Assembly: GCA_944363675.1 (NCBI GenBank)
Contig: CALVUT010000081.1
Coordinates: 1 to 35,128 of the forward strand
Direction of reading: 5' to 3'
Length of the DNA: 35,128 bases
Origin: an uncultured Bacilli bacterium
GTDB taxonomy: Bacteria > Bacillota_I > Bacilli_A > RF39 > UBA660
Shown: positions 445 to 28,765 of the stretch, piece after piece
Layout of the letters: each line of letters starts with the position of its first letter
Numbering within the stretch: position 1 is the first letter of the stretch
Translations under genes and position numbers: made by a program
The notes under the pieces: model-generated
What the model was told of the DNA's origin: nothing
The model's database searches: none
The model's input: only the letters and a program-made list of their open reading frames with translations

Positions 445-520
445 TGGTGTCCCCTTAGGGATTCGAACCCTAGACCCACTGATTAAGAGTCAGTTGCTCT
501 ACCAACTGAGCTAAGGAGAC
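445..520 (-). tRNA. tRNA-Lys (anticodon CUU)
   Basis: Complete cloverleaf with encoded CCA. The acceptor GTCTCCT pairs with AGGGGAC (one G-U pair). The anticodon stem ACTGA/TCAGT encloses CTCTTAA, so the anticodon is CUU, reading AAG. Part of the gene is duplicated at 329-368. Confidence 0.92.
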
Positions 521-538
521 AACTTACTGACATGATTA

Positions 539-547
539 ATTATAGCA
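539..547 (-). promoter_or_regulatory. extended -10 of tRNA-Lys
   Basis: TGCTATAAT on the minus strand, 18 bp upstream of the tRNA 5' end. The -35 region is weak, which fits an extended -10 promoter. Confidence 0.6.
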
Positions 548-568
548 CACTTTTGGAAAAATGGAAGT

Positions 569-594
569 AAAAAAAGTGATTTTCTATAAAATCA
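569..594 (-). terminator. terminator of the ABC-F operon
   Basis: Stem TGATTTT/AAAATCA with a 4-nt loop, then CTTTTTTT on the minus strand, starting about 10 bp after the ABC-F stop codon. Confidence 0.75.
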
Positions 595-603
595 TGTCAA
601 TTT

Positions 604-2148
604 TTAAGAAGCAAGGGAACGAATATCTACTATTCTGGTCGCTAAATCTTTATAAAAACTTTCTTCGTGCGATACTAATATGATTGTTCCTTCGAATTCT
701 TTTAAAGCTTTTTTCAATACTTCTTTGGCTTCTACGTCCAAATGGTTGGTTGGTTCATCTAATATCAGCATATTGCATGGAGTTAGGACTAACATGCACA
801 GTTTTACTTTTGCTTGCTCTCCACCACTTAAGGTAGTTATTTCTTGAATCATATGTTCATTTTTAATCGCAACACTTGCCAAGGCAGAACGGATTTGTTT
901 CTGATTTAATTTAGGGAAGGCTTCGGATAAAATATGTAAAGGTGTATCTTTGGGATTATCCCAGTTTAAATCTTGTTCAAAATAGCCAATTTGTTTGACG
1001 CTTTCTCCAAAATGAAACGTTCCACCACGCGATGGAATTTGACCTAAAAGCGTTTTTAATAGTGTACTTTTGCCGATGCCATTAAAACCGGTAATCACTA
1101 ACTTGTTTTGCCTGCGAACTTCAAAGCTTAAAGGAGGTAGTAAAGTGTAATAATAACCTACTTCAAGGCGGGTTACATCTAATAAGACTTGACCTGTTGT
1201 CTGTAAATATGAAAAATGAAAATGAGGCTTGGACACTGTTGTTGGTTTAGCTAATTTTTCCATTTTATTTAATCTTTTTTCTCTACTCTTGGCCATATTG
1301 GCAGTTGAAGCACGAACTTTATTTTTAGCAATATAGTCTTCTAGCTTTTTTATTTCCTTTTGTTGGAATTCGTATTGTTTTATGTATTCTTCACGATTTG
1401 CTTCCTTTTGTTTTAAAAACTTTGAATATGGACCTTTATATTTTTTAATTCGAGAAAATTCGATATCACAAATACATGTCGTAACCTTTTCTAAAAAGTC
1501 ATAATCATGGGAAACGATAATAAAGGAGGCGGGTGTTGACTGTAAGTAGTTGGCTAACCAAGAAATGTGCTCTTTATCTAAAAAATTCGTTGGTTCATCT
1601 AAGATGAGAATATCAGGAGAAGATAAAAGCAATTTTACCAATATGACTTTGGCTCTACTTCCCCCACTTAAGTTTTTGAGAATGGTATCCATACCAAGAG
1701 CACTTACTCCTAAACCACTTGCGTACTTTTGAATGGTGCTATCAATGGCATAAAAGTTACGTTTTTCTAAAATATCTTGATAGTATGCAACTTGCTTTAA
1801 TAGGGCATCCGTACAATTTTCGGCCATTTGATTATAGAGGTTATTTAGTTTAGTTTCCATCTCGTATAGGTCTTGAAAAGCCGTGCGCAAGTAATCAAGG
1901 ATAGTTAAATTTTGATTGATGATGGCATATTGATCTAAATGGCCAATGGTAACATTATTTTGCCATTTAACGCTGCCTTTATCCGGAATAACTTCATTTA
2001 AAAGAATTTTTATTAAAGTACTTTTTCCAGTTCCATTTTGACCGACAATTCCCATATGTTCGCCTTTATATAGTTCAAAAGAGGCATCTTGATATAAGAT
2101 TTTATCTCCGTAGGAATGAGATAGATGTTCCACTTCTAGTAATGCCAT
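604..2148 (-). CDS. ABC-F family ATPase, YfmM-like
   Basis: A 514-residue soluble protein with two ABC ATPase domains and no membrane segment. Domain 1 has Walker A GQNGTGKST (about residue 36), signature LSGGSRAKV and Walker B ILILDEPTNFLD. Domain 2 has GFNGIGKST, LSGGEQAKV and MLILDEPTNHLD. A basic linker lies between them. ABC-F proteins bind the ribosomal E site and adjust translation or protect against antibiotics; they do not transport. Length and sequence resemble B. subtilis YfmM more than Uup or EttA. An AAAGGAG ribosome site overlaps the end of the preceding gene, one base away, so the gene is the last of the pepC operon. Whether it gives drug resistance cannot be read from the sequence. 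Confidence 0.9.
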   Translation of the reverse strand: MALLEVEHLSHSYGDKILYQDASFELYKGEHMGIVGQNGTGKSTLIKILLNEVIPDKGSVKWQNNVTIGHLDQYAIINQNLTILDYLRTAFQDLYEMETKLNNLYNQMAENCTDALLKQVAYYQDILEKRNFYAIDSTIQKYASGLGVSALGMDTILKNLSGGSRAKVILVKLLLSSPDILILDEPTNFLDKEHISWLANYLQSTPASFIIVSHDYDFLEKVTTCICDIEFSRIKKYKGPYSKFLKQKEANREEYIKQYEFQQKEIKKLEDYIAKNKVRASTANMAKSREKRLNKMEKLAKPTTVSKPHFHFSYLQTTGQVLLDVTRLEVGYYYTLLPPLSFEVRRQNKLVITGFNGIGKSTLLKTLLGQIPSRGGTFHFGESVKQIGYFEQDLNWDNPKDTPLHILSEAFPKLNQKQIRSALASVAIKNEHMIQEITTLSGGEQAKVKLCMLVLTPCNMLILDEPTNHLDVEAKEVLKKALKEFEGTIILVSHEESFYKDLATRIVDIRSLAS

Positions 2149-2149
2149 A

Positions 2150-3442
2150 TTATTTCTCCTTTCTGTAACTTAAGGTTAGCTCATTTTGCTCTTTTGTTAG
2201 ATTTGCTCCCATCTTTTTTAAACAAGCCTCCACAGAAGGCCTTTGTTCAAGATAATTTTGGAGATAAAAAGCTATCTTGCTGCACCATTGATAGTATTTC
2301 TGCTCTTTTATCATGGATTTTTTTATTCCTTGATTTTTATGGTAAGCAGTTAATAATTGTTGATGTGTTTGGATTTCACGAACTACTTTTTGTTTGTATT
2401 CTTCTAAAGTAACTTTTTGAATTTCCCTTATGCATAATTGTTTAATACTCTCGGGAAATACTTTAGCACCGCAAGCAATGCTTTGACGATAGGTTTGAAA
2501 ACTTTGCTGTAATTCATCTTTTTTTTCCAAGATGTTTTTTAATTCCATTATTTTTTGCCGTGCATAGGCCAGCTCTTCTTCTTTGGGCTGAACGTTTTGT
2601 AATTGCTTGTGTGTTTCGGTTAATAAACTTTGAGTGACTTGCTGAAATTGAATAGTTTGTTCCCAAATCTGGTCAAAAGAATACTTTTCTACTTTAGAGA
2701 GAATATAAATTGTTATAGCAAATAGCTCTGCCAATGACTTTAATTCGCTTTCAGGATAAAAAAAGATAAATTCTTCTAGATTCTTATATAGCCATATGCT
2801 TCTAAATTTAACCGGAATTTTAGACATAATGGTACGAAAAAGAAACTCGTAAACATTATACGTGTATGAACCGATTGCATTTTGAGCCAGATTTTTTTGA
2901 GGATCTATAAGATTTACATTATAATCTGCCTCGCCTTCGCTGAGCAATAAGTTGAATTCCTTTGCAAGAGGCAAGAAAGAGTCTATATGATAAAATCCTC
3001 TTTGCATTTGAATGCTATGAAACAATTCATGATGGAAATCAAAACATAGTGATTTTAGAGCGTTTTCTACTAGATAAATGTTGTTTTCTTTTGAATTGTA
3101 GCAGGCAGATACCGATAAATAATAACTTCCTTTTGAATCCACAACATATTTATTATTTTCTTTTTTAAACCGGAATGGTTGCACTCCTTCGGAATCACTT
3201 CTTATGATTTGATCATGAAAATATCTTGTTATTTCGTCTGTTGGAGCTATTATATCGGCAATAGATAGAATGCGCAGATCATTTAACTTTAATAAAGCAT
3301 ATAAACATTTGCTTTTATATTTTTCCTTTGAAGTCCGCTCTAATAAATTTTTTTGGGGATCATAAGTTTGTAGTTGCTTTAACCAAGCAAATACCAGAGA
3401 TTAATTTAATACAAATAAGCTTTTTTGACTCATACTGACCAT
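2150..3442 (-). pseudogene. HExxH metallopeptidase-like gene with an in-frame stop
   Basis: The frame starts at ATG 3442 behind a GAAGGA ribosome site, reads 13 codons (MVSMSQKSLFVLN), meets TAA at 3401-3403, and then stays open in the same frame to 2150. The 72 codons between the stop and the first later start (GTG 3184) look protein-like but contain no ATG, GTG or TTG. That GTG has its SD-like GAAGGA directly abutting it, too close to work well. Intact, the product would be about 430 residues. The motif HHELFHSIQ carries HExxH, typical of zinc peptidases, and GEADYN further on could supply a third ligand. The C-terminal half is helical and charged. Family not identified. It lies between pepC (9-bp gap) and the ABC-F gene (1-bp gap). 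Confidence 0.65.
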
Positions 3443-7507: not shown

Positions 7508-8538
7508 TAGGGATTACCTTGGTTTTTATTGTTGTTTGGTTGAACAGGAACTTGATCGGGCACTGGCTGTTGTACTGAATTGTTTGTTTCTGGAGATGGC
7601 GCTTGACTTTGAACGGCATCAATCGGTCCAAATCTTTGCTCATATTCGTGAATTACATCTGACAAAAGTGGTACAGATGCTTTGGCTCCATATTTCGTTG
7701 TTGAAAGTGCGGCAGCGATGTTGGCAATTCGAAGACATTTTTCTAGGTCATATTCTTTGTCTAACCCATAAATGAAGGCACCATCAAATATATCTCCAGC
7801 TCCGGTACGATCAATTTCCTTTACTTCGATTGTTGGCATTACACGGACCGCGGTATCTATCGCGTACAAAACACCTTGATTGTGCAATGTAACGATGTTA
7901 ATGCTGTTTGGAAACTTTTCTTGTAGTTCTTTATAAAGATTGAAGAGATGGCTTCCATTTGTAGGATCCACAGTCATTCGAGTTACCTTACATGCAAATT
8001 CTAAAGAAAAGATAACGTATTTGGCATATTTGGCTAAAGCAACTACTTCTTTTTCATCCGCATAATTTAAGCCAGCACCTAAAATACTAATTGCATTTGG
8101 AAATTTATTTAAAGCGGCCTGGGTTGCCGAATACTCATATCCATCTGAATAAATGATTTCTGGAGTTATATCGTAATCATATTTCTTTAGATGATATACT
8201 TCGGGTTCAACCATTAGTTGCGTTCTAGAGTTATTTGCCTTATTGGCTAGGATAATTGTCGTTGTTGTCTTTTTTTCATAGTTGATTTCCATAAAGTTGG
8301 TATGAACGTGATTCGTGTCCAGTTCTTTTTTTATGTTGGTGCCATTTTCATCGTAACCAACAATACCAGCAAAATAAGAATCCACATTCCACTTAGCTAA
8401 TAAATAAGCAACATTAGAAGCGCTTCCTCCACTTGCTTCTAGCTTTTCGTTTAGAATATTTTTGGAATTTTCTACAGGAAAATTATCCATAGGAATAGTA
8501 GTGTCATAAGTTACTTTCCCAATATTTAGTGCTATCAT
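7507..8538 (-). CDS. PfkB-family sugar or nucleoside kinase with a Pro/Gln/Asn tail
   Basis: A 343-residue ribokinase-fold kinase. The N-terminal sugar-binding signature is ASGGSASNVAYLL (near residue 35). The C-terminal signature DRTGAGDIFDGAFIYG (near residue 238) carries the anion hole and catalytic Asp. The substrate cannot be assigned. After about residue 310 the sequence becomes a low-complexity tail rich in Pro, Gln and Asn, which the family does not need and which looks disordered. Start ATG 8538 has GGTGAT upstream. A -10 TATAAT lies at 8571-8576. First gene of the operon with smr. Confidence 0.88.
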   Translation of the reverse strand: MIALNIGKVTYDTTIPMDNFPVENSKNILNEKLEASGGSASNVAYLLAKWNVDSYFAGIVGYDENGTNIKKELDTNHVHTNFMEINYEKKTTTTIILANKANNSRTQLMVEPEVYHLKKYDYDITPEIIYSDGYEYSATQAALNKFPNAISILGAGLNYADEKEVVALAKYAKYVIFSLEFACKVTRMTVDPTNGSHLFNLYKELQEKFPNSINIVTLHNQGVLYAIDTAVRVMPTIEVKEIDRTGAGDIFDGAFIYGLDKEYDLEKCLRIANIAAALSTTKYGAKASVPLLSDVIHEYEQRFGPIDAVQSQAPSPETNNSVQQPVPDQVPVQPNNNKNQGNP

Positions 8539-8570
8539 AAATCACCATATCTTTCTATCTTTCATTTCTT

Positions 8571-8576
8571 ATTATA
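8571..8576 (-). promoter_or_regulatory. -10 box of the pfkB operon
   Basis: TATAAT on the minus strand, 32 bp before the ATG, with a weak TTTTCA 17 bp further upstream. Confidence 0.5.
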
Positions 8577-8635
8577 CAATATTTTATAAGTCTTGAAAAG
8601 AAAAATGAAAATGGGAAGTCAAAATCCTTTTCCTA

Positions 8636-8669
8636 CTAAAAAGAAACTCCACTAAATGTTGGGGTTTCT
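8636..8669 (-). terminator. terminator of ppdK
   Basis: AGAAACCCCAAC pairs with GTGGAGTTTCT around a short loop, then a T run on the minus strand, about 20 bp after the ppdK stop. Confidence 0.75.
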
Positions 8670-8687
8670 CTCTATTTTTCATTCAAT

Positions 8688-11315
8688 TTAAAGTTGCTTT
8701 TGCTCTTCGATAACCGCTTTAGCTGCAGCAAGTCTTGCTACAGGAACACGATATGGTGAACAAGAGACGTAATCTAGGCCTATTTTATGGAAGAATGCTA
8801 TGCTATGCTCTTCCCCACCGTGTTCTCCACATACGCCAAGTTCAATGTCCGGACGGACTTGTTTTGCTTTTTTAATTGCAATTTGCATAAGACTACCTAC
8901 ACCACTTTCATCCACTCTTGCAAAAGGATCTTGAGTGAATATGTGTTTGGCATAATAGTCTGTCAAAAACTTGCCTGCGTCATCTCGGGAAAAACCATAG
9001 GTCATTTGTGTTAAATCATTTGTTCCAAAAGAGAAAAATTCTGCTTCTTTAGCTATTTTATCTGCTTCTACGCAGGCTCTTGGAAGTTCGATCATTGTTC
9101 CAATTTTATAAGGAATGGTCATGTTTTCTTCAGCAAAGAGTTTGGAAATGGTTTCGGTAATGATCTTTTTGAGATAAAGCAGTTCTTGTTCATCGCCTAC
9201 TAAAGGCACCATGATTTCTGGATGGACTTGTTTATTTTCTTTGGCTACTTCTATAGCTGCCGATATAATGGCTTTGGTTTGCATTATGGCAATTTCAGGA
9301 TAAGTAATTGCTAGTCTACAGCCGCGATGGCCCATCATGGGATTAAATTCTTTTAAAGCGTCAATACGAGCTTCTAGTTGTTCTAAAGATATATGTAATT
9401 CTTTGGCTAGTTCTTTTTTTTCTTTTTCTTCTTTTGGCAAGAATTCATGCAATGGAGGATCTAGCAAACGTATTACTACTGCTCTAGGGCTCATGACTTC
9501 AAATAAAGCCTTAAAATCTTCTTTTTGATAAGGCATTATCTCATCTAAATAATGGCTGCGTTCTTCGGGTGAAGTTGCTAAAATCATTTTACGGAAATGA
9601 AGAATACGGTCGGTTTGAAAAAACATATGCTCTGTTCGACATAGACCAATTCCTTCGGCGCCAAATTTTAGAGCTACTTCGGCATCGTGTTTGTTGTCCG
9701 CATTGACCCGAACTTGCAAATGCCTTATTTCATCAGCCCAATTCATAAAGGTGGCAAATTCCCCACTAATGTTTGGCTCTGTTTTTTCAAGGCTTCCGTC
9801 ATAAACAATGCCTGTAGATCCGTCTAAGCTGATCGCATCTTTTTCGTGATAAACGTGACCTTCTTTCGTTGTTAATGTCTTTTTTTCTTCATCGATTTCT
9901 AGATCAGAACACCCCGTTATACAACAAACACCCATTCCTCTTGCTACAACTGCCGCATGAGAGGTCATTCCCCCACGAACAGTTAAAACTCCTTCAGAAT
10001 GGTTCATTCCTTCAATGTCTTCTGGAGAAGTTTCAAGACGAACTAAGATGACCTTTTCGCCATTTTGGTGGGCCTTGATTGCTTCTTTGGCATGAAAATA
10101 GATACTTCCTGATGCGGCACCAGGACTGGCAGCTAGACCATGGGCGATTTCTTTCGCACTTTGTAAGGCCGTTAAATCAAAAGTTTTATGTAAAAGATTA
10201 TTTAGATCATTTGGGTCTACCCTTAGTAAAGCTTCTTCTTTGGAAATTAAGCCTTCACTTACCATATCGACAGCAATTTTGATTGCAGCTAAGGTTGTTC
10301 TTTTCCCAGATCTTGTCTGAAGCATGTAAAGTTTGCCGTTTTCAATTGTAAATTCCATATCTTGCATATCACGATAGTGGCTTTCGAGCATTTTCGCGTA
10401 CTTATGAAATTCTGTGTAAATAAAAGGCATCTTTTCTTTTAATTTTTCAATATTTTGAGGTGTTCTTACGCCAGCGACGACATCTTCTCCTTGAGCATTC
10501 ATTAAATATTCGCCGTATAAAATATTTTCTCCGGTAGCAGGGTTTCTAGTAAAAGCAACACCGGTTCCAGAATTTTCTCCCATATTACCATAGACCATTT
10601 CTTGAACATTCACTGCTGTTCCCCAAGAATCCGGAATATGATTTAATTTACGGTAGTAAATAGCTCTTTCGTTATTCCAACTTTCAAAAACGGCTTTTAC
10701 GGCTTCTAATAATTGTGTTTTTACATCAGTCGGAAACTGTTCATGGACTAAGGATTGATAAATTTTTTTAAACTCAACGGTTAATATTTTTAAGTCTTCG
10801 GCTGTTAAATCTAAATCTGAAGCATACTCTTTTTGTTTTTTATAGTTATCTAAGTAACGTTCATAGTTATCTTTGGATACTCCTTTTACGACATCACTGT
10901 ACATTTGGATTAGACGGCGGTAAGAGTCGTATACGAAGCGTTCACTTGTTTTTTGACTTAAAGAAATAGCCACCTCATCATTTAAGCCGAGGTTTAAAAT
11001 CGTATCCATCATTCCAGGCATACTTGCTCGAGCGCCACTGCGAACACTAAGAAGTAATGGGTTTTCTTCCGAACCAAAGTTTTTTCCCGTTTCTTTCTCT
11101 AATTTTTCCACACTGGAAAGAATTTGACTTTTCATTTCGTCAGTCAGGTTTTTAGCTTGCTCATAATAATCATTGCAAGCTTGTGTTGTGACCGTGAATC
11201 CTTTTGGAACGGGCAAGCCCATGTTCGTCATCTCGGCTAAATTTGCTCCTTTCCCCCCTAACAATTCTTTCATTGTTTGACTACCTTCATGAAACATATA
11301 GACGTATTTATGCAT
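8688..11315 (-). CDS. ppdK: pyruvate, phosphate dikinase
   Basis: An 875-residue cytosolic enzyme interconverting ATP, phosphate and pyruvate with AMP, pyrophosphate and phosphoenolpyruvate. The usual domain order is complete: nucleotide-binding N-terminal part beginning GGKGANLAEM, swivelling phosphohistidine domain GGMTSHAAVVARGMG with the catalytic His, and a C-terminal PEP/pyruvate barrel with LGVCGEHGG carrying the catalytic Cys. Length matches the family. No PPDK regulatory protein gene lies nearby. Start ATG 11315 has AAAGGAGA 8 bases upstream. It is a single-gene unit with its own promoter and terminator. Confidence 0.97.
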   Translation of the reverse strand: MHKYVYMFHEGSQTMKELLGGKGANLAEMTNMGLPVPKGFTVTTQACNDYYEQAKNLTDEMKSQILSSVEKLEKETGKNFGSEENPLLLSVRSGARASMPGMMDTILNLGLNDEVAISLSQKTSERFVYDSYRRLIQMYSDVVKGVSKDNYERYLDNYKKQKEYASDLDLTAEDLKILTVEFKKIYQSLVHEQFPTDVKTQLLEAVKAVFESWNNERAIYYRKLNHIPDSWGTAVNVQEMVYGNMGENSGTGVAFTRNPATGENILYGEYLMNAQGEDVVAGVRTPQNIEKLKEKMPFIYTEFHKYAKMLESHYRDMQDMEFTIENGKLYMLQTRSGKRTTLAAIKIAVDMVSEGLISKEEALLRVDPNDLNNLLHKTFDLTALQSAKEIAHGLAASPGAASGSIYFHAKEAIKAHQNGEKVILVRLETSPEDIEGMNHSEGVLTVRGGMTSHAAVVARGMGVCCITGCSDLEIDEEKKTLTTKEGHVYHEKDAISLDGSTGIVYDGSLEKTEPNISGEFATFMNWADEIRHLQVRVNADNKHDAEVALKFGAEGIGLCRTEHMFFQTDRILHFRKMILATSPEERSHYLDEIMPYQKEDFKALFEVMSPRAVVIRLLDPPLHEFLPKEEKEKKELAKELHISLEQLEARIDALKEFNPMMGHRGCRLAITYPEIAIMQTKAIISAAIEVAKENKQVHPEIMVPLVGDEQELLYLKKIITETISKLFAEENMTIPYKIGTMIELPRACVEADKIAKEAEFFSFGTNDLTQMTYGFSRDDAGKFLTDYYAKHIFTQDPFARVDESGVGSLMQIAIKKAKQVRPDIELGVCGEHGGEEHSIAFFHKIGLDYVSCSPYRVPVARLAAAKAVIEEQKQL

Positions 11316-20583: not shown

Positions 20584-20625
20584 ATAAACAATTGTATCAT
20601 TAATGAGTCAAAGAAAAAAGAAGAA

Positions 20626-20917
20626 TTTTTTCATGTCTTTCACCTAACATTAGAAAGAATAAAAGATTTGAATTTTGCAATAAATGCCTTACCTGGTGTT
20701 TCTCGAACTAAAGCATTAAAAACTATGCTAAATGATAATTATAGAAATGCAACAAAAAAAGAATCCTGAACCAGAATTCATTGATTTATACATACGCTGT
20801 TTAAACAAAAATATATCTTTATTACAAAGGCTTGATTTATTACAATTTTTATATCAAATTACAATTCAAAATATATCTTTTAATAAAAATGTACATAGAA
20901 TTATACTAAAAAAATAA
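20626..20917 (+). pseudogene. frameshifted ORF remnant beside priA
   Basis: Plus-strand frame 1 reads ERIKDLNFAINALPGVSRTK and ends at TGA 20767. A second frame continues from the A7 run near 20753 with NPEPEFIDLYIRCLNKNISL and ends at 20917. Joined across the A run they give one Leu/Ile-rich helical protein of about 90 residues. No start codon or ribosome site survives in the first part. I do not recognise the family. It marks the left edge of the accessory region; otherwise 20584-20964 holds nothing I can name. Confidence 0.5.
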
Positions 20918-20964
20918 ATTTTTTTGAAATGTATCTTTTATGTTTTAAATAATATAAATGCTTT

Positions 20965-21684
20965 TTAATATAAAGGGCTGTTCATTTTTCTGTTTTTAGT
21001 TAGCTTCATTTGAGAATTACCCACAAATATCGTTGAAAATGAATGAATCCTATTATAAGGAAGTTTAGATAAGTTAGTTACTATAATATTTTCTTCTTTA
21101 CATCCAATATTATTAGCTATACCAATAATTGGATCTTCTTTTTTTACACTTAATAAAATTTCCTTAGCCAACAACAAATTAGAAATATCTGGATTGCAAG
21201 GACTATAAAATACAATATTAAAATTAGCTAAAGCAGCGTATCTTACTTTCTTTTCTATATCTTGTTTATTTCCAAAGTTATTACTTAAACTTATAACGAC
21301 AAAATCTTTTGTTAAAGGAGAGCCTAGTAACGCTGCGCCTGATATTGCAGAGGTTATTCCTGGAATAATTTCTAATTCTAATGTATCATCAATTTTATCC
21401 AACTTGTCTAAAATTATATTAGATATTCCATATATTCCCGTATCTCCACTGCCTAAAATAGAAACCACATTATTTTTTAAAGCTTTCAATATGGCATTAT
21501 TGCATCTTTCATTAGTTGCATTATATGAATTCGGTAATAATTTATCATTAAAATATAAGCAGAGTTTTTGATACAATAATTCATCACAATAAATAAACTC
21601 AGATTCCATTAACACTTTATTAGCTTTAATAGTTAAATCTTCAAAATTGCCACTACCTACTCCAACTATATATAATTTTTTCAT
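20965..21684 (-). CDS. CobJ-like tetrapyrrole-fold SAM methyltransferase
   Basis: A 239-residue member of the tetrapyrrole methylase fold, closest by motif to precorrin-3B C17-methyltransferase (CobJ/CbiH). It shows LYIVGVGSGN (residues 4-13), LGSGDTGIYGI near 77, and PGITSAISGAALLGSP followed by LTKDFVVISL near 108. No other cobalamin gene is present. It is the last gene of the operon that starts with a small peptide and a radical SAM enzyme, overlapping the HAD gene by ATGA. In that setting it may methylate the peptide, as the same fold does in borosin N-methyltransferases; that is an inference. A stray cobalamin gene is the alternative. Confidence 0.82.
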   Translation of the reverse strand: MKKLYIVGVGSGNFEDLTIKANKVLMESEFIYCDELLYQKLCLYFNDKLLPNSYNATNERCNNAILKALKNNVVSILGSGDTGIYGISNIILDKLDKIDDTLELEIIPGITSAISGAALLGSPLTKDFVVISLSNNFGNKQDIEKKVRYAALANFNIVFYSPCNPDISNLLLAKEILLSVKKEDPIIGIANNIGCKEENIIVTNLSKLPYNRIHSFSTIFVGNSQMKLTKNRKMNSPLY

Positions 21685-22238
21685 TCAGCATTCCTTACTA
21701 TATCAATTATTTTTTCAAAAAGATTATCATCATTTCTATTTACTTTTAAAGTTGTAATTCCCATCTCAGATGCACTATTAATATTTTCTTCATTATCATC
21801 TATAAATAATAAATCTTTAGGTTGAATACTATATTTATCTAAAATGTGATTGTAAAAGTCTTTATTTGGTTTAATTTTATGAATTTCAGCAGAAATAAGA
21901 ACATCGTCTAAATACTGAACTTCCAAATTTTCTCCAATAAAATTTCTGATATACGATACATGATTTGTTGCAATTATCAAACGAATATTTGGATATCTTT
22001 CTTTGATTCTTCTAAATATATTTTTTTCTGTACATTCGTATAATTTATTAATTAAACACTCGGTTATATCCATTATTGTAGAATCTTTGGATATAATTTT
22101 TCTTGCCTCCATTAAATAGTCTGAATCGTACAAATTTGGCCCAAACATTCTTTCTAATTTACTTTCTTCATCAGTTAAATCAATATCCTTTTCATGTACC
22201 AATACCCCTACTAAATCAAAAGCTATTATTTTTATCAT
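21681..22238 (-). CDS. HAD-superfamily hydrolase with altered first motif
   Basis: A 185-residue haloacid dehalogenase-fold protein of the YihX or soluble epoxide hydrolase N-domain type. Motif 1 is AFDLVGVLV: the nucleophile Asp is present, but the usual second Asp (DxD) is Val. Motif 2 is LIIATNH, the motif 3 Lys lies in HKIKPNKDF and motif 4 is LLFIDDNEEN. Enzymes lacking the second Asp can still hydrolyse C-halogen bonds or have weak phosphatase activity. AGAGGAA precedes ATG 22238. It sits between the C39-like peptidase and the CobJ-like gene, overlapping the latter by ATGA. Confidence 0.82.
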   Translation of the reverse strand: MIKIIAFDLVGVLVHEKDIDLTDEESKLERMFGPNLYDSDYLMEARKIISKDSTIMDITECLINKLYECTEKNIFRRIKERYPNIRLIIATNHVSYIRNFIGENLEVQYLDDVLISAEIHKIKPNKDFYNHILDKYSIQPKDLLFIDDNEENINSASEMGITTLKVNRNDDNLFEKIIDIVRNAE

Positions 22239-22241
22239 TTT

Positions 22242-22766
22242 TTATTCCTCTTTCTTTAATAATATTCTCCAAGAACCACAATTTTCACAGCATTGTATAA
22301 TAAATTGTGGATCAACATCAGATATTTCATATTTTTCCTTTTGAGGATTTATCATTTCTATTTTTTCATTCTTTAGCCTCAAAATAACATAATGATTACC
22401 TGACAATTGTTTATCATTATTTAAAATTGCAGAACTAACAGAAACTATCATAAACTCATATTCTTTTAGCTCTTTCAATAGTTCCTTCTCCGTCAATTTT
22501 CTTTCAAATATGTGAAGACCTTTTTCTTCCAATATTCTTATATATATAAAACCATCACAGGCATCAATATTATTGGCTTTTTTATATTCGCTATTTAAAG
22601 TGCTATTAAAACAATATATTTTAATACCTTTTGAAAAATACTTGTATAAATATAAGGCTATTTCAGGAACCCAAAATAAATTCTGATTGAGTTTTTCTTC
22701 AGAGATACTATAATGATTTAATATGTATCTTACACAAGCACTTCCACATAATATTTCATTCTTCAT
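22242..22766 (-). CDS. C39-like cysteine peptidase, stand-alone
   Basis: A 174-residue soluble protein. Near the N terminus, LCGSACVRYILNHYSI matches the Cys-containing start of C39 and C39-like papain-fold peptidases. SGNHYVILRL near residue 128 supplies the His, and MINPQ the following Asn or Asp position. C39 domains cut leader peptides from bacteriocins, but they are usually fused to an ABC exporter; this one is free and has no membrane part. CENCGSW near the C terminus carries a further Cys pair. One base separates it from the HelD-like gene and no ribosome site is visible, so translation is probably coupled. Likely leader protease of the cluster (inference). Confidence 0.68.
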   Translation of the reverse strand: MKNEILCGSACVRYILNHYSISEEKLNQNLFWVPEIALYLYKYFSKGIKIYCFNSTLNSEYKKANNIDACDGFIYIRILEEKGLHIFERKLTEKELLKELKEYEFMIVSVSSAILNNDKQLSGNHYVILRLKNEKIEMINPQKEKYEISDVDPQFIIQCCENCGSWRILLKKEE

Positions 22767-22767
22767 A

Positions 22768-24807
22768 TCACTTTTTTAATCTTTCTAATTTTAGCTCTGG
22801 CTGATTATATACTGTTAAAGCATGTTGTGCTCTTGTACACACTACATAAAACAGATATTTTTCTTGTTCTTTATAACAATTTTCTTTTAAAACACATGAA
22901 ATGACTCCGTCAAATTCTAACCCTTTAGATATATAAGCTGGCAAAACAACTACACTTTCCTCTTTACCAAAATTTGGCTCTGATACTAAACAAACGTCTG
23001 ATAAAATCGGTTTAAGCTTATTATAAAATTCTAACATTTCTGAATGATTTTTAACGATTATAGCTATTCTTTTCATTCCATTGTCTTTCATTATAGCTAT
23101 ATCTTGAATTAATTGTGTAATAATTTTTTCTTTTTCAACATTTCTTAATAATACTGGAATAGAGTTATTCCTTCGAACAGCACAACCATTTTCAATGCCT
23201 AAAATATGATTAGTATAATCTATAATTTCAGCACTCGAGCGATAAGTTTTTGTCAATTCTAAATATCTGCCTTTATTTTCAAAAACTTTATTCATTTCAT
23301 TTAAAGACGAATATCTATAAAAAGGATTTATTGTTTGATGAACATCTCCAAGAATAGTAAACGAAGCTTTATAAAAGATTTTTTTTAACATTTCCATTTG
23401 CATCAAAGTATAATCTTGTGCCTCATCAATAACAACATGTTTTATACTTGTATCTTTAGGATACCCCCATAATTCAAAATACAAATACATTATTGGTACT
23501 AAATCTTCAAACTGTAATAGCGATTTACTATTAAATATCATACCATTAGACTCTAAAATTCTTGAATAAAGCTCGAAAGCATTAGTAGATAATGATATTA
23601 GAGATAAAAGTTTTTCGTAAATTACATTTCTATTTTTTGAAACCGAAATTAAATTACTTTCACATAGATACTCTGATATATAATGTAATCTGCCAAATAA
23701 AGGGATTGACGAAAATCTTCTATGTAATAAGTCATTTAACAAATTCACATCAATTTTTTTATCGTTAATTACTATTCCACTTTTAAATTTAAAGGAATAT
23801 TGCAAATCATGTAGCGCTGAATCCAAAACAGTTTTGAATTCATTTGACATTTTAAAACTACATTCTTTTTTTTGAATTTCTGTACTAGCATACTGATAAT
23901 ATCTTTCTATATAATCTGTAAAGCTTTCAACTTTTTTAACCTCTTTAATGTATGATCTTGCAAATTCAGAAAAAGTTGTCTGTAAAACATTTTCTTCTCC
24001 TAACTCTGGTAAAACATTTGATATATATTCAGAAAAAATATCGTTAGGTGAAAAAATTAAAACATTATTCGAATTCAAATCTTTTTCACTATACAATAAA
24101 TATGCTATTCGATGCATAGCTACGCTTGTTTTTCCTGAACCAGCGATTCCTTGAACAATTAAATAACGATCTTTCATATTTCTAATAACATCATTTTGCT
24201 CTTTTTGAATTGTATTCACTATATTGGTCATTTTATCTGATGAAGAAGTAGCTAGAATTTCTTGTAGATAATCATCATCAATATTCAAATCATTATCAAA
24301 ACATCTTTCAATTTTTCCATTATTAATTTTATATTGCCTTTTTTTTGTAATTATGCCCTCAATTTTACCAGCAGGTGCTTCGTAATATGCACTTCCCTTT
24401 CCAAAATTATAAAATAAACTTGCAATAGGAGTACGCCAATCAAAAACATAATAATTATGTTTGTCTCTTATACCATTTATACCAATATATATCTTATCAA
24501 TATCATAATCACATTCAAAATCCACTCTACCAAAATAAGGATTTATCAAAGATTTTTTTAATTTCAATAATTGCTTTAATCGCTCATTTGCTTGAGATAC
24601 TTGATTATTAACATTATACATGCTGCTTGAAATTTCTACATCATCTAATTCTGCATTATTTTCCCAAATATATCTTTTCATTTCCGTAATATCATTCATA
24701 TTTATTTGAATTCCTTCAGTATCCTTTGCAATTTGATTCTGTATTATTTCTAAAGTTTGTAAAAGATATTCTTTTTCTTTTCGTAATTCTTCAGATGAAA
24801 TATTCAT
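22768..24807 (-). CDS. HelD-like RNA polymerase recycling ATPase
   Basis: A 679-residue UvrD/Rep-type superfamily 1 ATPase of the HelD family. HelD frees stalled RNA polymerase, and its actinobacterial relative HelR displaces rifamycins from the enzyme. The N-terminal coiled coil (1-90) and the family sequence YFGRVDF, FDWRTPIASLFYN, YYEAPAGKI and TIQKEQNDVIR are present. Walker A is GIAGSGKTS (220-228); DEAQD, LGDVHQTIN, TKTYRSS and VVCTRAQHAL follow, so all ATPase motifs look intact. I chose ATG 24807, with AAAGGA 8-9 bases upstream and 4 bp after the previous stop; the frame is open to 24933. Its place within a peptide-modification operon is unusual. Confidence 0.88.
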   Translation of the reverse strand: MNISSEELRKEKEYLLQTLEIIQNQIAKDTEGIQINMNDITEMKRYIWENNAELDDVEISSSMYNVNNQVSQANERLKQLLKLKKSLINPYFGRVDFECDYDIDKIYIGINGIRDKHNYYVFDWRTPIASLFYNFGKGSAYYEAPAGKIEGIITKKRQYKINNGKIERCFDNDLNIDDDYLQEILATSSSDKMTNIVNTIQKEQNDVIRNMKDRYLIVQGIAGSGKTSVAMHRIAYLLYSEKDLNSNNVLIFSPNDIFSEYISNVLPELGEENVLQTTFSEFARSYIKEVKKVESFTDYIERYYQYASTEIQKKECSFKMSNEFKTVLDSALHDLQYSFKFKSGIVINDKKIDVNLLNDLLHRRFSSIPLFGRLHYISEYLCESNLISVSKNRNVIYEKLLSLISLSTNAFELYSRILESNGMIFNSKSLLQFEDLVPIMYLYFELWGYPKDTSIKHVVIDEAQDYTLMQMEMLKKIFYKASFTILGDVHQTINPFYRYSSLNEMNKVFENKGRYLELTKTYRSSAEIIDYTNHILGIENGCAVRRNNSIPVLLRNVEKEKIITQLIQDIAIMKDNGMKRIAIIVKNHSEMLEFYNKLKPILSDVCLVSEPNFGKEESVVVLPAYISKGLEFDGVISCVLKENCYKEQEKYLFYVVCTRAQHALTVYNQPELKLERLKK

Positions 24808-24811
24808 GTCA

Positions 24812-25444
24812 TCAATCCTTTCTTCTTCGATATACCAAACTATTAATTTTATCAAAACTTTGATAAAAAGTTCCAAAAGCATTTTCTGGATGAACTGCTC
24901 CCAAAAAAGATATGTTATTTTGAAAATCAGCAATATTATAATCGGTTTTTGGAAATTCTATTTCGTCTAAAATTACTATACAATCTTTATTAATAATTTT
25001 TTCCTTTTCCATTAATATTAGAACAAGAATTATTTGTTGTGCCAATAGATTATATAAATTTCTATAATATCTATAACCCTTTATTTCTCCTGTTAGCTCA
25101 TATATTTCATGTCCTTTTTCTAAAAAAAACGATAAATCAAAACACATTGTTTTTTCCAAACTTTGCATTATTTCATTAAATGGATAAAAATTTTGATAAT
25201 TCATTACAAACTCTTCGAGCGAAAGTTTTCCTAATACTACATTATTAACTTCACGCATATCGGAAACTATTGAATCAGGGAAGGTTTTTATAAATTTTTT
25301 TAATAATGATTTTTCAACATGTTCAGTAGCAGAATCTAATATAAACAATGGTAAACCCCTACTTTTACATTTTACAGCTTCAGTATAAAGATATGTAGTT
25401 TTGCCAACTTCTCTTTCATCAATTATTAATTGGTTGTTTATCAT
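24812..25444 (-). CDS. small P-loop-like NTPase, unknown function
   Basis: A 210-residue protein without membrane segments. IIDEREVGKTTYL at residues 7-19 resembles Walker A with the first Gly replaced (DEREVGKTT), and CIVILDEIEFP near residue 155 is a good Walker B. ATP or GTP binding is therefore likely, but the family is not recognised. It starts inside the end of the radical SAM gene (26-bp overlap) with AAGGAA upstream, and ends 4 bp before the HelD-like gene. That arrangement suggests it works with one of them, perhaps as a partner or regulator of the HelD-like ATPase. Confidence 0.65.
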   Translation of the reverse strand: MINNQLIIDEREVGKTTYLYTEAVKCKSRGLPLFILDSATEHVEKSLLKKFIKTFPDSIVSDMREVNNVVLGKLSLEEFVMNYQNFYPFNEIMQSLEKTMCFDLSFFLEKGHEIYELTGEIKGYRYYRNLYNLLAQQIILVLILMEKEKIINKDCIVILDEIEFPKTDYNIADFQNNISFLGAVHPENAFGTFYQSFDKINSLVYRRRKD

Positions 25445-27014
25445 TAGTAAGTTCCTTGTTACTAGAATGCTTTTTTAACCAAGCTTGCATTAAATAAATG
25501 TACATTTGTCTGCGATCAATACACTGTGGATCTTCTCGATATATATCTCCGAATTTACCATAAGCTGAATAGCAACAAGAACAACACATACCTCTAAATA
25601 AACATTTACTACATTTTTCTATTGTAGAAGCCGTCCGATTTCTTAATTTTATAATTTCTGGTTTTTTTAACATTTCTTCGATAGTTTCATTTAACACATT
25701 TCCCATCACAAATTTTGATTCACCTTTAAATCCATCACATGGGAATACATCACCATTTGGATTTACAGATACTAATTCTCGTGCAGCTCCGCATGGATAT
25801 CTCAAACAAATATAATCTCTAATAGGAGTGTACACATTTTCTTCAAAAATATGTATTGAAAAGTTTTCAACATCAACTTCATCCTGCATCTCATACATTT
25901 CTTTAAAACATTTTGCCCATTCTCCAGGCTTCGTAGTCAAATGATTTTCTTTTTCACGACCTAAAATATTTACTGGTCTTGGTTTAAAATTCATACCAAT
26001 ATCATCAAAAAACCTCATTATTTGTTTTGGATAGTGAACATTATGCTGACCAATTGTACACACAGCTCCATCAATATAAATACCATTATCTCTTAATTTT
26101 TTAATTCCTTTTGCAATTCTATCAAAAGCACCTTTTCCATTAATATCTACTCTAGTTTGATCAGTCATTTCTTTTGGGCCATCTAAACTGACTCCTACAC
26201 TAACATTGTAGGTTTTTATTAAATCAATTAAATCTTCTGTTACTAGTATACAGTTTATTTCTGTCCTATACTTAACTAATTTATCATAATTAACCTTGAT
26301 CTTTTCAGCCATTTCAATAAATTTTCGCATTCCTGGAACATTTGTTGAAGCCTCGCCACCTTGAAATTCAAAAGTTATAACCTTTACTTGTGGCATTGAG
26401 AGCATACTATGTATAGTTGCTTCCATCACTTCTTCAGTCATATTTTCCCCTTTAAACGGTCCGCAATCTGCGAAACAATATTTACATCTTAAATTACATC
26501 CCGTTGTAATATTAACAACAATAACACTTGGATAATCAGCAGGTAACGGAAAATCTAAATCAACCTCTACATTATTTTTTTCTTCAGCCAAACCTCTGAT
26601 AAAAAGGCTAAACCACTCATCATTAGTTAATACATCATTATTATAGCGTTCGAATTCTTCTTGATTTAAAGCCATCCAAGATCCGAGTTCTGGATTAATT
26701 AGTATTTGATAATTATGCTTGTCAACTTTCAAAGGAAAACTCTGAACTCTTTTAGATTTCACAAATTTCATTTCGTCTATGTTTAGGTCTGGAGAAATAT
26801 CAATTTCTTCACAATTTTTATCCTTAGCTAATCCTTTATAATATAATTTTTCCCATTCTATTTCATTAAGATGATTTTGCTCATACTTCTCATATTCACT
26901 TTCATTTAAAATTACAGTATTATTTTTGCTAGATAAAACATATTTGTCATTTATTTTTTTGATTTTAACATCATGTTTTTTTTCATATTCTCTGCTTAAC
27001 CAGGGACTTCTCAT
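25419..27014 (-). CDS. radical SAM/SPASM peptide-modifying enzyme
   Basis: A 531-residue enzyme. The radical SAM cluster motif is CNLRCKYC (Cys 173, 177, 180), with a further Cys at 184. FEFQGGEAS is the GGE motif. The C-terminal SPASM region has Cys 403, 408, 426, 468, 471, 477, 478, 480, 481 and 498, enough for two auxiliary Fe-S clusters. Relatives cross-link or oxidise ribosomal peptides. The first 150 residues contain two similar units, each a strand pair, then EW.. and a GLA-K/E-KN ending (about 24-67 and 101-147), a likely peptide-binding region. GGAGG lies 6 bases before ATG 27014. It follows the 44-residue peptide gene by 74 bp. Confidence 0.92.
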   Translation of the reverse strand: MRSPWLSREYEKKHDVKIKKINDKYVLSSKNNTVILNESEYEKYEQNHLNEIEWEKLYYKGLAKDKNCEEIDISPDLNIDEMKFVKSKRVQSFPLKVDKHNYQILINPELGSWMALNQEEFERYNNDVLTNDEWFSLFIRGLAEEKNNVEVDLDFPLPADYPSVIVVNITTGCNLRCKYCFADCGPFKGENMTEEVMEATIHSMLSMPQVKVITFEFQGGEASTNVPGMRKFIEMAEKIKVNYDKLVKYRTEINCILVTEDLIDLIKTYNVSVGVSLDGPKEMTDQTRVDINGKGAFDRIAKGIKKLRDNGIYIDGAVCTIGQHNVHYPKQIMRFFDDIGMNFKPRPVNILGREKENHLTTKPGEWAKCFKEMYEMQDEVDVENFSIHIFEENVYTPIRDYICLRYPCGAARELVSVNPNGDVFPCDGFKGESKFVMGNVLNETIEEMLKKPEIIKLRNRTASTIEKCSKCLFRGMCCSCCYSAYGKFGDIYREDPQCIDRRQMYIYLMQAWLKKHSSNKELTNDKQPINN

Positions 27015-27088
27015 TATATACCTCCATTAAATTTCTATACAACATAGGTATAAAATACATCAAAAGATTTATAAGTTACTTATGGATT

Positions 27089-27223
27089 TCATTTATGAGT
27101 GTGAGTTCCACATCCATCATATCCTAAACCGATTTTGTTTCCAAATGAAATTTTAATTTGATTTTTTGAAATTTTTGCTTTCAAATTTTTAACAATATCG
27201 TTTTTTATTTCTCTTTTTTTCAT
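27089..27223 (-). CDS. candidate RiPP precursor peptide
   Basis: A 44-residue peptide. A basic leader (MKKREIKNDIVKNLKAKI and following) ends near a Gly-rich C terminus, GLGYDGCGTHTHK, with one Cys, two His, two Thr, one Tyr and one Asp. ATG 27223 has GGAGGG 7 bases upstream; the longer open frame to 27292 has no ribosome site. It is the first gene after the consensus promoter, with a leader of about 82 nt, and sits directly before the radical SAM/SPASM gene, the standard place for a substrate. I do not recognise the C terminus as that of a known precursor family. The cleavage site is not evident; G-L or K-I before GLGY are candidates. Confidence 0.8.
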   Translation of the reverse strand: MKKREIKNDIVKNLKAKISKNQIKISFGNKIGLGYDGCGTHTHK

Positions 27224-27256
27224 AACTTCACCCTCCTTTCCTATTTTATTATTTAA

Positions 27257-27274
27257 AACATAGAAACCTATGTT
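27257..27274. promoter_or_regulatory. palindrome in the precursor leader, possible operator
   Basis: AACATAGAAACCTATGTT, 7-bp perfect arms around 4 bp, lies between promoter and precursor ATG. ACATAGG-type sequence recurs at 27040-27048 (CAACATAGG, other orientation, before the radical SAM gene) and at 27378-27385 (CCTATGTA, before the first regulator). It could be the operator for one of the XRE regulators or an RNA hairpin in the leader. Confidence 0.45.
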
Positions 27275-27310
27275 GCATAGTCGACTAAACATATAGAATA
27301 CTTGGTTTTT

Positions 27311-27339
27311 ATTATAAATTTATCACACTAAAATGTCAA
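27311..27339 (-). promoter_or_regulatory. consensus promoter of the RiPP operon
   Basis: TTGACA (27334-27339), 17-bp spacer, TATAAT (27311-27316): exact match to both boxes on the minus strand. It drives the precursor and presumably the six genes behind it. Such a strong promoter is likely to be held back by a repressor. Confidence 0.85.
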
Positions 27340-27431
27340 CGAAAAGCAAACATCCTCCAAAAACAAGTGGCTACTAGCCTATGTATAAATAATACTTTTT
27401 AATGGACAATATTTGTATGCTGGTGGTACGT

Positions 27432-27683
27432 ATGAAAGAAACGTCTTTTCTTCATGATGATGAATATTATTACCAAATCATTCGTCAAAATCTAAAAAAG
27501 ATACGTTTGCAACAAAAATTAACTCAGCAAGATTTAGCAGATATGATAGGCATGTCTCGAGAATATATTTGTGATATTGAAAATGAAAAAAGAAAGAAAC
27601 ATGTAACTATCGCTGTTTTGGGAAGAATTGCAGATGCTTTGAATATAGATATACGAGATTTCTTCAAAACATCTGCTCAATAA
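27432..27683 (+). CDS. XRE-family regulator 1
   Basis: An 83-residue protein consisting almost entirely of a Cro/CI helix-turn-helix domain: IRQNLKKIRLQQKLTQQDLA, then MSREYICDIENEK as recognition helix, and VLGRIADALNIDIRDFF. I take ATG 27432 because GGTGG precedes it; ATG 27417 or 27402 would add 5 or 10 residues. It is divergent from the RiPP operon and shares its upstream region, so it is the best candidate for its repressor. No sensor domain is present. Confidence 0.82.
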   Translation: MKETSFLHDDEYYYQIIRQNLKKIRLQQKLTQQDLADMIGMSREYICDIENEKRKKHVTIAVLGRIADALNIDIRDFFKTSAQ

Positions 27684-27699
27684 TAGTGTAATTATTGCA

Positions 27700-27869
27700 C
27701 TATTTTTTCTTTTCTTGAGTATCATTTATAGTTACCATCAGTTTTCTTTTTGATTTTTTTATAACAATTGAAGCCTCTGGATGATCTGTTAACCTAATCG
27801 TAACTATCTCATTCAAATTAAGAAAAATTTGTCTTTCTTTTGTTTTTTTATGTCTGCTATTTTAGTCAC
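27700..27869 (-). pseudogene. broken small gene between the two regulators
   Basis: On the minus strand GGAGG (27869-27875 region) is followed 8 bases later by ATA GCA GAC, where an ATG would be expected, and the frame ends after 15 codons. In another frame the coding sequence continues as IFLNLNEIVTIRLTDHPEAS and ends in NDTQEKKK at TAG 27700-27702. Joined, the product would be about 53 residues with a helical basic start and a strand-rich middle. Both the start codon and the frame appear lost. Family not recognised; small genes of this kind are common on integrative elements. Confidence 0.5.
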
Positions 27870-27903
27870 CTCCTCTTTACTATATATAATACCATAAATA
27901 TAG

Positions 27904-27932
27904 TTGAGTGCATTTATTAAATGTGGTACATT
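27904..27932 (+). promoter_or_regulatory. promoter of XRE regulator 2
   Basis: TTGAGT (27904-27909), 17-bp spacer ending TGG, TACATT (27927-27932), 40 bp before the TTG start. Confidence 0.6.
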
Positions 27933-27971
27933 TAACATATCTTCATTAGATAATTGTGCTAGGTGATCAAA

Positions 27972-28211
27972 TTGAAAATAAATAAAAACGATAATAAATA
28001 TATCTATGTTATCGCTGGAAAAAATATCAAAAGAATACGAGAAGAAAAAGGTTTAACTCAAGTTCAATTAGCTGATTTAACAAAATATAGTGAAGGTACA
28101 ATTTCCAATATAGAAAATGATAGCTTTCAAACATTTAGTTTAGAATTTTTATATATTATTTCAAAAAAATTAGAAGTACCTATGAATGAATTTTTCAAAA
28201 AAATAGATTAA
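27972..28211 (+). CDS. XRE-family regulator 2
   Basis: A 79-residue single-domain Cro/CI helix-turn-helix protein: AGKNIKRIREEKGLTQVQLA, recognition helix YSEGTISNIEND, and a C-terminal helix IISKKLEVPMNEFFKKID. TTG 27972 is the likely start, with AGGTG 6 bases upstream; GTG 27963 overlaps that ribosome site. It has its own promoter and a strong terminator. It may be a second regulator of the island or a leftover of the mobile element that carried it. Confidence 0.8.
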   Translation: MKINKNDNKYIYVIAGKNIKRIREEKGLTQVQLADLTKYSEGTISNIENDSFQTFSLEFLYIISKKLEVPMNEFFKKID

Positions 28212-28271
28212 ACTAATTTTTCGCTGTATACATCATCAAAAAATTTTTATCAAATTAACAATATAAATAGA

Positions 28272-28299
28272 CCCCCTGCCTAAATTGCAGGGGCTTTTT
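28272..28299 (+). terminator. terminator of XRE regulator 2
   Basis: Seven- to eight-bp G+C-rich stem CCCCTGC/GCAGGGG with a 7-nt loop and a T5 run; the clearest hairpin in the island. Confidence 0.85.
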
Positions 28300-28389
28300 C
28301 TACAATAATATTTACTTGCCAGCTATTTTGCTTAGTCGTAGTTGTACTCTTGTTAATGTCAATATAAAAATGTACAAAAAAGGGAAAAT

Positions 28390-28551
28390 AAGCGTGTACA
28401 GAGCAATAACTCTTAATTGCATTTTCATCAATTTCAAAAAAAGATAATCCCATAATCATCAATAATCCCATTTCTTTTAATTTCTGTAGAACCTTTTCTG
28501 GCTACCGATGCCACTAAAAAATATGCCTACTTTTATTTCTTTATTTGCCAT
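28390..28551 (-). pseudogene. remnant of a cytosine-5 DNA methyltransferase
   Basis: On the minus strand ATG 28551 starts MANKEIKVGIFFSGIGSQK, with the FSGIG motif I of C5 DNA methyltransferases. The frame then shifts, and the next frame reads EKVLQKLKEMGLLMIMGLS followed by FFEIDENAIKSYCSVH, matching the family's EID..A..SY..vH segment after motif I. The rest of the enzyme (PC motif onwards) is absent. It is therefore a frameshifted N-terminal stub, probably of a lost restriction-modification gene at the right edge of the accessory region. Confidence 0.72.
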
Positions 28552-28577
28552 TCTATCAACCCACTCTTTTAGACAAA

Positions 28578-28604
28578 TAAAAAAGCTACAAAATATGTAA
28601 CTTT
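28578..28604 (-). terminator. hairpin with T run, possible orphan terminator
   Basis: AAAAG-TAC pairs with GTA-CTTTT with one mismatch and a T run on the minus strand. No intact minus-strand gene lies directly upstream, so it may be left from a deleted one. Confidence 0.4.
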
Positions 28605-28680
28605 TCTTTCATTATTGCAAATAAATTACTAAAATAATCAAAAAAACAACTTAAATTAAAACAACATTAAAAATGAAATA

Positions 28681-28737
28681 TCCCCATAAAACCTAGTAAT
28701 ATTAAGCGTTTTCAACTTAATTAACTTCCGCTGGGGA
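28681..28737. repeat. nested imperfect palindrome in the right-hand intergenic region
   Basis: TCCCCA (28681-28686) pairs with TGGGGA (28732-28737). Within it TTAAG (28702-28706) pairs with CTTAA (28716-28720). No T run follows. The stretch 28552-28765 holds no gene. This could be a structured RNA element, an extrachromosomal-element end or a protein site. Confidence 0.4.
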
Positions 28738-28765
28738 TAAGTTCCATAGCCCCTGTTGTCAAATC

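Follow-up and report, generated by a model that had tools for sequence, protein, structure and literature searches.

Gene content of the locus

The locus lies in an assembly of 1.34 Mb (102 contigs, 92% complete) of an uncultured Bacilli bacterium. Coordinates are those of the window, i.e. the whole stretch of 35,128 nucleotides of contig CALVUT010000081.1 that was analysed. The genes, lettered A to G along the minus strand, and their surroundings are as follows.

20584..28765, no strand: inserted island between priA and a HAD gene, two genes that abut in L071-L073
27311..27339, minus strand: promoter TTGACA-17-TATAAT, matching the consensus at 12/12 positions
27089..27223, minus strand: gene A, precursor peptide of 44 amino acids, present once in each of 10 genomes
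25419..27014, minus strand: gene B, radical SAM/SPASM enzyme (PF04055 at 7.8e-19, PF13186 at 4.7e-12)
24812..25444, minus strand: gene C, small P-loop ATPase of the ASCE (HerA/VirB4-like) type, with invariant GKTT and DEIE
22768..24807, minus strand: gene D, a HelD of 679 amino acids, the motor that recycles RNA polymerase (NF041464, 485 bits against a cut-off of 419)
22242..22766, minus strand: gene E, C39-like cysteine protease without a membrane part, assigned by its fold and by the C39 match in homologues
21681..22238, minus strand: gene F, HAD-IA family hydrolase (TIGR01509, 45.7 bits against a cut-off of 29.4)
20965..21684, minus strand: gene G, CobJ-like protein of the tetrapyrrole-methylase fold (PF00590 at 9.1e-31), an optional member

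The original prediction placed seven tightly spaced minus-strand genes behind an exact promoter, and all of the open reading frames were found at the position and on the strand given there, with intergenic spacings of 74 bp (A>B), -26 bp (B>C), 4 bp (C>D), 1 bp (D>E), 3 bp (E>F) and -4 bp (F>G). The start of gene D was set by its homologues at ATG 24807; the mechanical open reading frame begins at a TTG farther upstream. The promoter was confirmed at 27339-27311, and this 12/12 match is the sole such site in the scanned region, where 9-of-12 matches are frequent in shuffles of the AT-rich DNA.

In the window, priA and the HAD gene lie 8.2 kb apart, and the two are abutting in three congeneric genomes (L071-L073). 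The segment 20631-27879 is common to the window and locus L009, its near twin, at 96.6% identity over 7.25 kb, and the DNA outside this block differs. The cassette is a mobile, island-like insertion between priA and the HAD gene in the window. A fourth congener, L069, carries a different insert of 2.9 kb at the same junction (504-3396). With inserts that differ across genomes of the genus (window 20584-28765; L069), the priA-HAD junction is a possible insertion hotspot.

Recurrence of the cassette

Of 243 genomes sampled in the family, 8, among them that of the window, have close relatives of B; in the order the figure is 7 of 288 genomes, every one from the same family. Besides the window's own genome, no match to B at E 1e-70 was found in 395 genomes of the class, and the exact peptide pattern was absent from 295 genomes of the phylum, two results that bear on close versions only. 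Plasmids and viral contigs gave no match to B, and viral contigs none to the peptide pattern or to C. A contig scan yielded extra loci, partly from the same genomes, for a total of 14 loci representing about 12 lineages of one family.

The original prediction had proposed co-occurrence in other genomes as its own test. Genes A to F recur in the 14 loci, being present in every locus whose contig spans them, while the flanking genes are different at every one. Gene order is constant except in L022, where F sits upstream of A (8458-9309, oriented). In L019, the gap between E and F is 581 bp long (7713-8293, oriented as the cassette). Several of the partner proteins are down to 34-60% identity. 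The pairwise divergences among the seven proteins correlate at 0.62-0.90, a sign that these genes are passed on together. The claimed association of seven genes therefore holds for A to F, HelD included, as a conserved cassette, and G is only an optional partner. A divergent regulator was considered as a part of the system and dropped, since it adjoins A only in the window and in L009.

Gene G adjoins the cassette in seven loci (the window, L009, L012, L018, L022, L025 and L055, the last of genome G065) at about 49-54% identity to the window copy, L009 aside. In genome G217, G is found on another contig than the cassette, with no cassette gene beside it (L079:7730-8473); L014 has no adjacent G, and none was found at E 1e-8 in genomes G330, G052, G001 and G186. 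G reaches 175 bits against the CobJ model, whose cut-off is 246, and no other TP_methylase turned up in the window genome (92% complete), so that cobalamin synthesis is unlikely. On these two grounds a role as the cobalamin enzyme CobJ/CbiH was rejected.

Precursor peptide and radical SAM enzyme

27092..27151, minus strand: conserved C-terminal region of A, ISFGNKIGLGYDGCGTHTHK (I25-K44), presumed core plus junction
26541..26987, minus strand: candidate leader-binding region of B, a module repeated in tandem at the N-terminus (residues 10-80 and 81-158), identified by hhalign

The tail of A from I25 to H43 reads ISFGxKIGLGYDGCGTHTH, and 18 of its 19 residues are invariant in the 14 loci, position 29 being the one that varies. 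All 19 codons nevertheless vary synonymously, with at least two forms each. The leader half is more variable and keeps K7 N8 D9, V11 and N13 L14. The short peptide is under strong selection. In L022, CGTHTH is followed by 13 extra residues instead of the final Lys, which means that a precursor does not have to end at the tail. No family model matched the peptide. A adjoins B in 14/14 loci, a conserved pair of short precursor and maturase.

The assignment of B as a radical SAM/SPASM enzyme in the original prediction is borne out by the Pfam matches and by the motif cysteines, all of which are invariant: C173/C177/C180 for the radical SAM motif CX3CX2C, and C408, G421, C426, C468, C471, C477, C481 and C498 for the SPASM set, tested as CX9-15GX4C - CX2CX5CX3C - C. 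The two halves of the N-terminal module of B align with each other at a probability of 98.5 and 32% identity over 56 columns (hhalign). The best PDB match of B is the CteB structure 5wgg. None of the NCBIfam models among the matches shown reached its cut-off, HxsB being nearest.

The ATPase, the protease and the question of export

No family model matched C at threshold. Its motifs GKTT and DEIE are invariant across homologues, and the structure model (pLDDT 79.9) gave weak PDB matches to the packaging NTPase B204, VirB4 and HerA, none at E 0.001 or better. P-loop proteins of about 350 amino acids with a weak likeness to the N-terminal part of C lie beside MerR-type regulators elsewhere (L051:7710-8762, L052:2755-3804, L053:5683-6729).

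A PDB sequence search with C and E returned nothing useful. For E, the proposed C39-like identity was upheld by the Pfam C39 model (PF03412), which matched 11 of 13 homologues at E values up to 0.1 (lowest 4.6e-6), and by a modelled papain-like fold (pLDDT 93.6) whose Foldseek matches are papain-like and C39-like proteins. The window copy itself scores 17.4 against PF03412, under the 22 of the model, and the homologues are 34-46% identical to it, L009 aside. C7 and H125 are invariant; position 140, the candidate third catalytic residue (Asp/Asn in C39), is Asn in most copies and Ile in L022 and L025.

The highest 19-residue hydropathy among the seven products is 1.45, and none has a likely membrane span. 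The conserved genes of the cassette include no exporter, transporter or membrane protein, so a secreted antibiotic is not the first reading that suggests itself.

The HelD protein

The match of D to the B. subtilis HelD structure was at 1.2e-103. The DWR motif is found in all operon copies of D, as DWR[TSA]P, and the ATPase motifs are present. All operon copies also carry a stretch WENN..LDD.E or LDE.E, which aligns with WEDVKVNFDDAHE of B. subtilis, the D56/D57 region at the acidic tip of the arm. This stretch is absent from seven other HelD copies examined, three in the window genome and four in congeners. Judged by these motifs, D is a full-featured HelD.

In B. subtilis HelD, protection against rifampicin is reported to depend on the tip residues D56, D57 and E60 (PMC12802891). 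HelD proteins are common, move horizontally and are frequently multicopy (PMC8655204), and the window genome has three more HelD genes besides D. These three, L044, L045 and L046 (G000 contigs 67, 20 and 16), have a shortened N-terminal arm, and two of them lie beside NUDIX-like genes.

An RNA element around the precursor gene

27267..27279, minus strand: upstream arm of a long-range RNA stem, TATGCAACATAGG, which pairs with 27036-27048
27036..27048, minus strand: downstream arm, CCTATGTTGTATA, just 5' of the ribosome site of gene B, nearly invariant in the 14 loci
27257..27263, minus strand: CTATGTT, which can pair locally with the upstream arm in an alternative leader hairpin whose pairs are kept

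The original prediction had missed an RNA stem around A, which is added here. The sequence TACACAACATAGG upstream of A has its reverse complement, CCTATGTTGTGTA, in the gap between A and B. In all loci whose contig spans both arms, these 13-nt sequences enclose the precursor gene and are likely to form a long-range stem of 13 bp between the leader and this gap. Over 12 loci, 154 of 156 base-pair cells are standard pairs, L018 having been left out of the count as the contig end cuts the locus. The changes comprise one compensatory replacement of C-G by U-A in the line of the window and L009, and G-U changes at three pairs. The downstream arm occurs once per locus on the cassette strand, and the paired motif once in the genome of the window. 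The window leader is predicted to fold through the long stem (z -2.80), and the local hairpin of the upstream arm keeps 5/5 counted pairs in 12/12 loci.

The tolerance of G-U favours pairing in RNA over a DNA operator, as far as a few changes and modestly exceeded shuffled controls may be read. Rfam matches, sought in six sources, were tRNAs only, and the stem was not among them.

Most other loci have a terminator-like hairpin preceding the upstream arm. It is absent in the window, L009 and L022, where the promoter is nearer to A. The hairpin, with its T-run, lies between promoter and precursor at approximately L012:8680-8735, L014:8650-8720 and L021:7850-7890 and in similar loci, and a competing stem of the GTGTTTGCC/GGCAAGCAC type is possible in L010, L015, L019 and L025. 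Hairpin and competing stem look like a transcription attenuator.

Proposed function

What was observed is the gene content, the co-inheritance, the constraint on the peptide, the paired RNA arms, the island insertion and the intact HelD motifs; we infer all of the chemistry, and the target. The preferred reading, to which we give a probability of about 0.4, is that of a self-contained RiPP cassette whose product acts on RNA polymerase and in which HelD serves as dedicated protection.

Gene A would be translated into the 44-residue precursor. B would bind the leader, probably via its tandem N-terminal module, and modify the conserved tail GLGYDGCGTHTH by radical SAM chemistry, the modification probably being a cross-link that involves the single Cys, Tyr or His. 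The leader would be removed by E, a soluble enzyme whose fold and invariant Cys and His are those of a C39-like cysteine protease. F may tailor the product, as may G where present, for which SAM-dependent methyl transfer is the most likely activity, and C would supply ATP-driven handling. D would enter RNA polymerase via the secondary channel and keep the cell's own polymerase working despite the product. The 13-bp RNA stem may set the expression of A apart from that of B-G and compete with the leader hairpin.

RiPP pathways are known for many targets. Given D as a dedicated HelD that protects the polymerase, the product would most likely act on RNA polymerase, a tentative assignment that draws on the known action of HelD and on the kept arm tip. 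A fuller version is possible and rather doubtful as a whole: a new radical-SAM RiPP class directed at the secondary channel or active-site region of RNA polymerase, carried on a mobile island, whose HelD is kept specifically to protect the target and whose RNA stem governs precursor dosage. Against the preferred reading, the cassette has no conserved exporter, the invariant tail of A is unusual for an arms-race toxin, and HelD might serve transcription and not immunity.

The absence of an exporter together with the invariance of the tail makes an intracellular role a strong rival. The product would then be no antibiotic but a regulator, a metal ligand or a cofactor, of the kind that PQQ and mycofactocin represent, and HelD and C would be effectors or would link its level to transcription. 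A near-invariant tail with a Cys and two His, one precursor per genome and a cassette devoid of exporter or membrane protein all agree with such a product. However, HelD is no obvious partner for a cofactor, no dedicated cofactor-using enzyme is conserved beside the cassette, and its presence in only 8 of the 243 family genomes argues that it has no essential role; we regard an intracellular product as less likely than the preferred reading.

The sporadic, island-like occurrence, with a different insert at the same site in another congener, would also suit a defence island against phages or other elements, where the modified peptide, the ATPase and HelD shut down or guard transcription on infection. 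An ATPase, a superfamily 1 motor and a cysteine protease make up a familiar defence-like mixture. The PADLOC models, however, yield only generic matches of UvrD and viperin type, on which ground a known defence system was rejected, and as no neighbours are conserved beyond the cassette, no defence genes recur alongside it. A defence function is in our judgement distinctly improbable.

The RiPP pathway could also be confined to A and B (with E), leaving D, C and F as passengers, or in an unrelated role, kept by operon drift. HelD is indeed widespread and often multicopy (PMC8655204), with three more copies in the window genome, but no locus whose contig covers D, C and F lacks them, and they diverge in a correlated manner while the flanks all differ; we consider such an arrangement very unlikely. 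That the operon is a chance one and the small open reading frame not a gene is hardly credible, even with a peptide that no family model matches, since across the 14 loci its amino acids are fixed while the codons vary, i.e. the variation found is synonymous only.

If D protects the polymerase from the product, as in the preferred reading, self-protection by HelD would be a marker for genome mining of polymerase-directed peptides, and resistance of the HelD/HelR type would have a possible natural origin. With a near-invariant 19-residue tail and a seven-gene set small enough for reconstitution, the idea is directly testable.

Comparison with known systems

The original prediction knew of no described class that combines these genes, and within the searches run neither a curated family model nor a paper to the contrary was found. 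The literature search, which was limited and in which 'HelD' also matches 'held', found no paper on this gene combination and no description of a RiPP operon with a HelD protein.

Among curated families, B is most like HxsB (TIGR03978), its best NCBIfam match at 170 bits over residues 101-521, and the cassette peptide shares a His-containing tail with the Hxs system. The score is far under the cut-off of 370, however, B carries a tandem copy of the N-terminal module, the cassette has one radical SAM gene and no second one (HxsC), and A has THTH, in the tail CGTHTH, without His-Xaa-Ser repeats. Membership of the Hxs system was rejected on the score, the missing HxsC and the missing repeats. The maturases of ranthipeptides, SCIFF peptides and dynobactin (PapB, CteB, DynA) likewise combine radical SAM and SPASM domains and adjoin a short precursor, but B is below their curated cut-offs, and SCIFF identity was rejected because A has a single Cys. 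To our knowledge, these systems include neither HelD nor C nor F.

The likeness to borosins, which the original prediction had drawn, lies in the fold family of G and was not sustained. G resembles CobJ/CbiH most, its PDB matches to E 0.01 include no borosin enzyme, and a 44-residue precursor has no room for the borosin binding domain, which measures 53 residues in the description of SonA; borosin membership was therefore rejected.

Microcin J25 is a lasso peptide inhibitor of RNA polymerase, and the secondary channel would be a common site of action if the preferred reading is right, by analogy only. The cassette has no lasso cyclase or protease, and its precursor is unrelated. D resembles HelD class I and HelR in its DWR motif, arm tip and ATPase motifs; compared with other HelD copies, it is shorter in the stretch that follows the first helicase motifs, and it is fixed within a peptide-modification cassette. 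That the pathway is a radical-SAM RiPP pathway is well supported; of the described classes found, none matches it, and it is of a known kind with the HelD partner as its new element.
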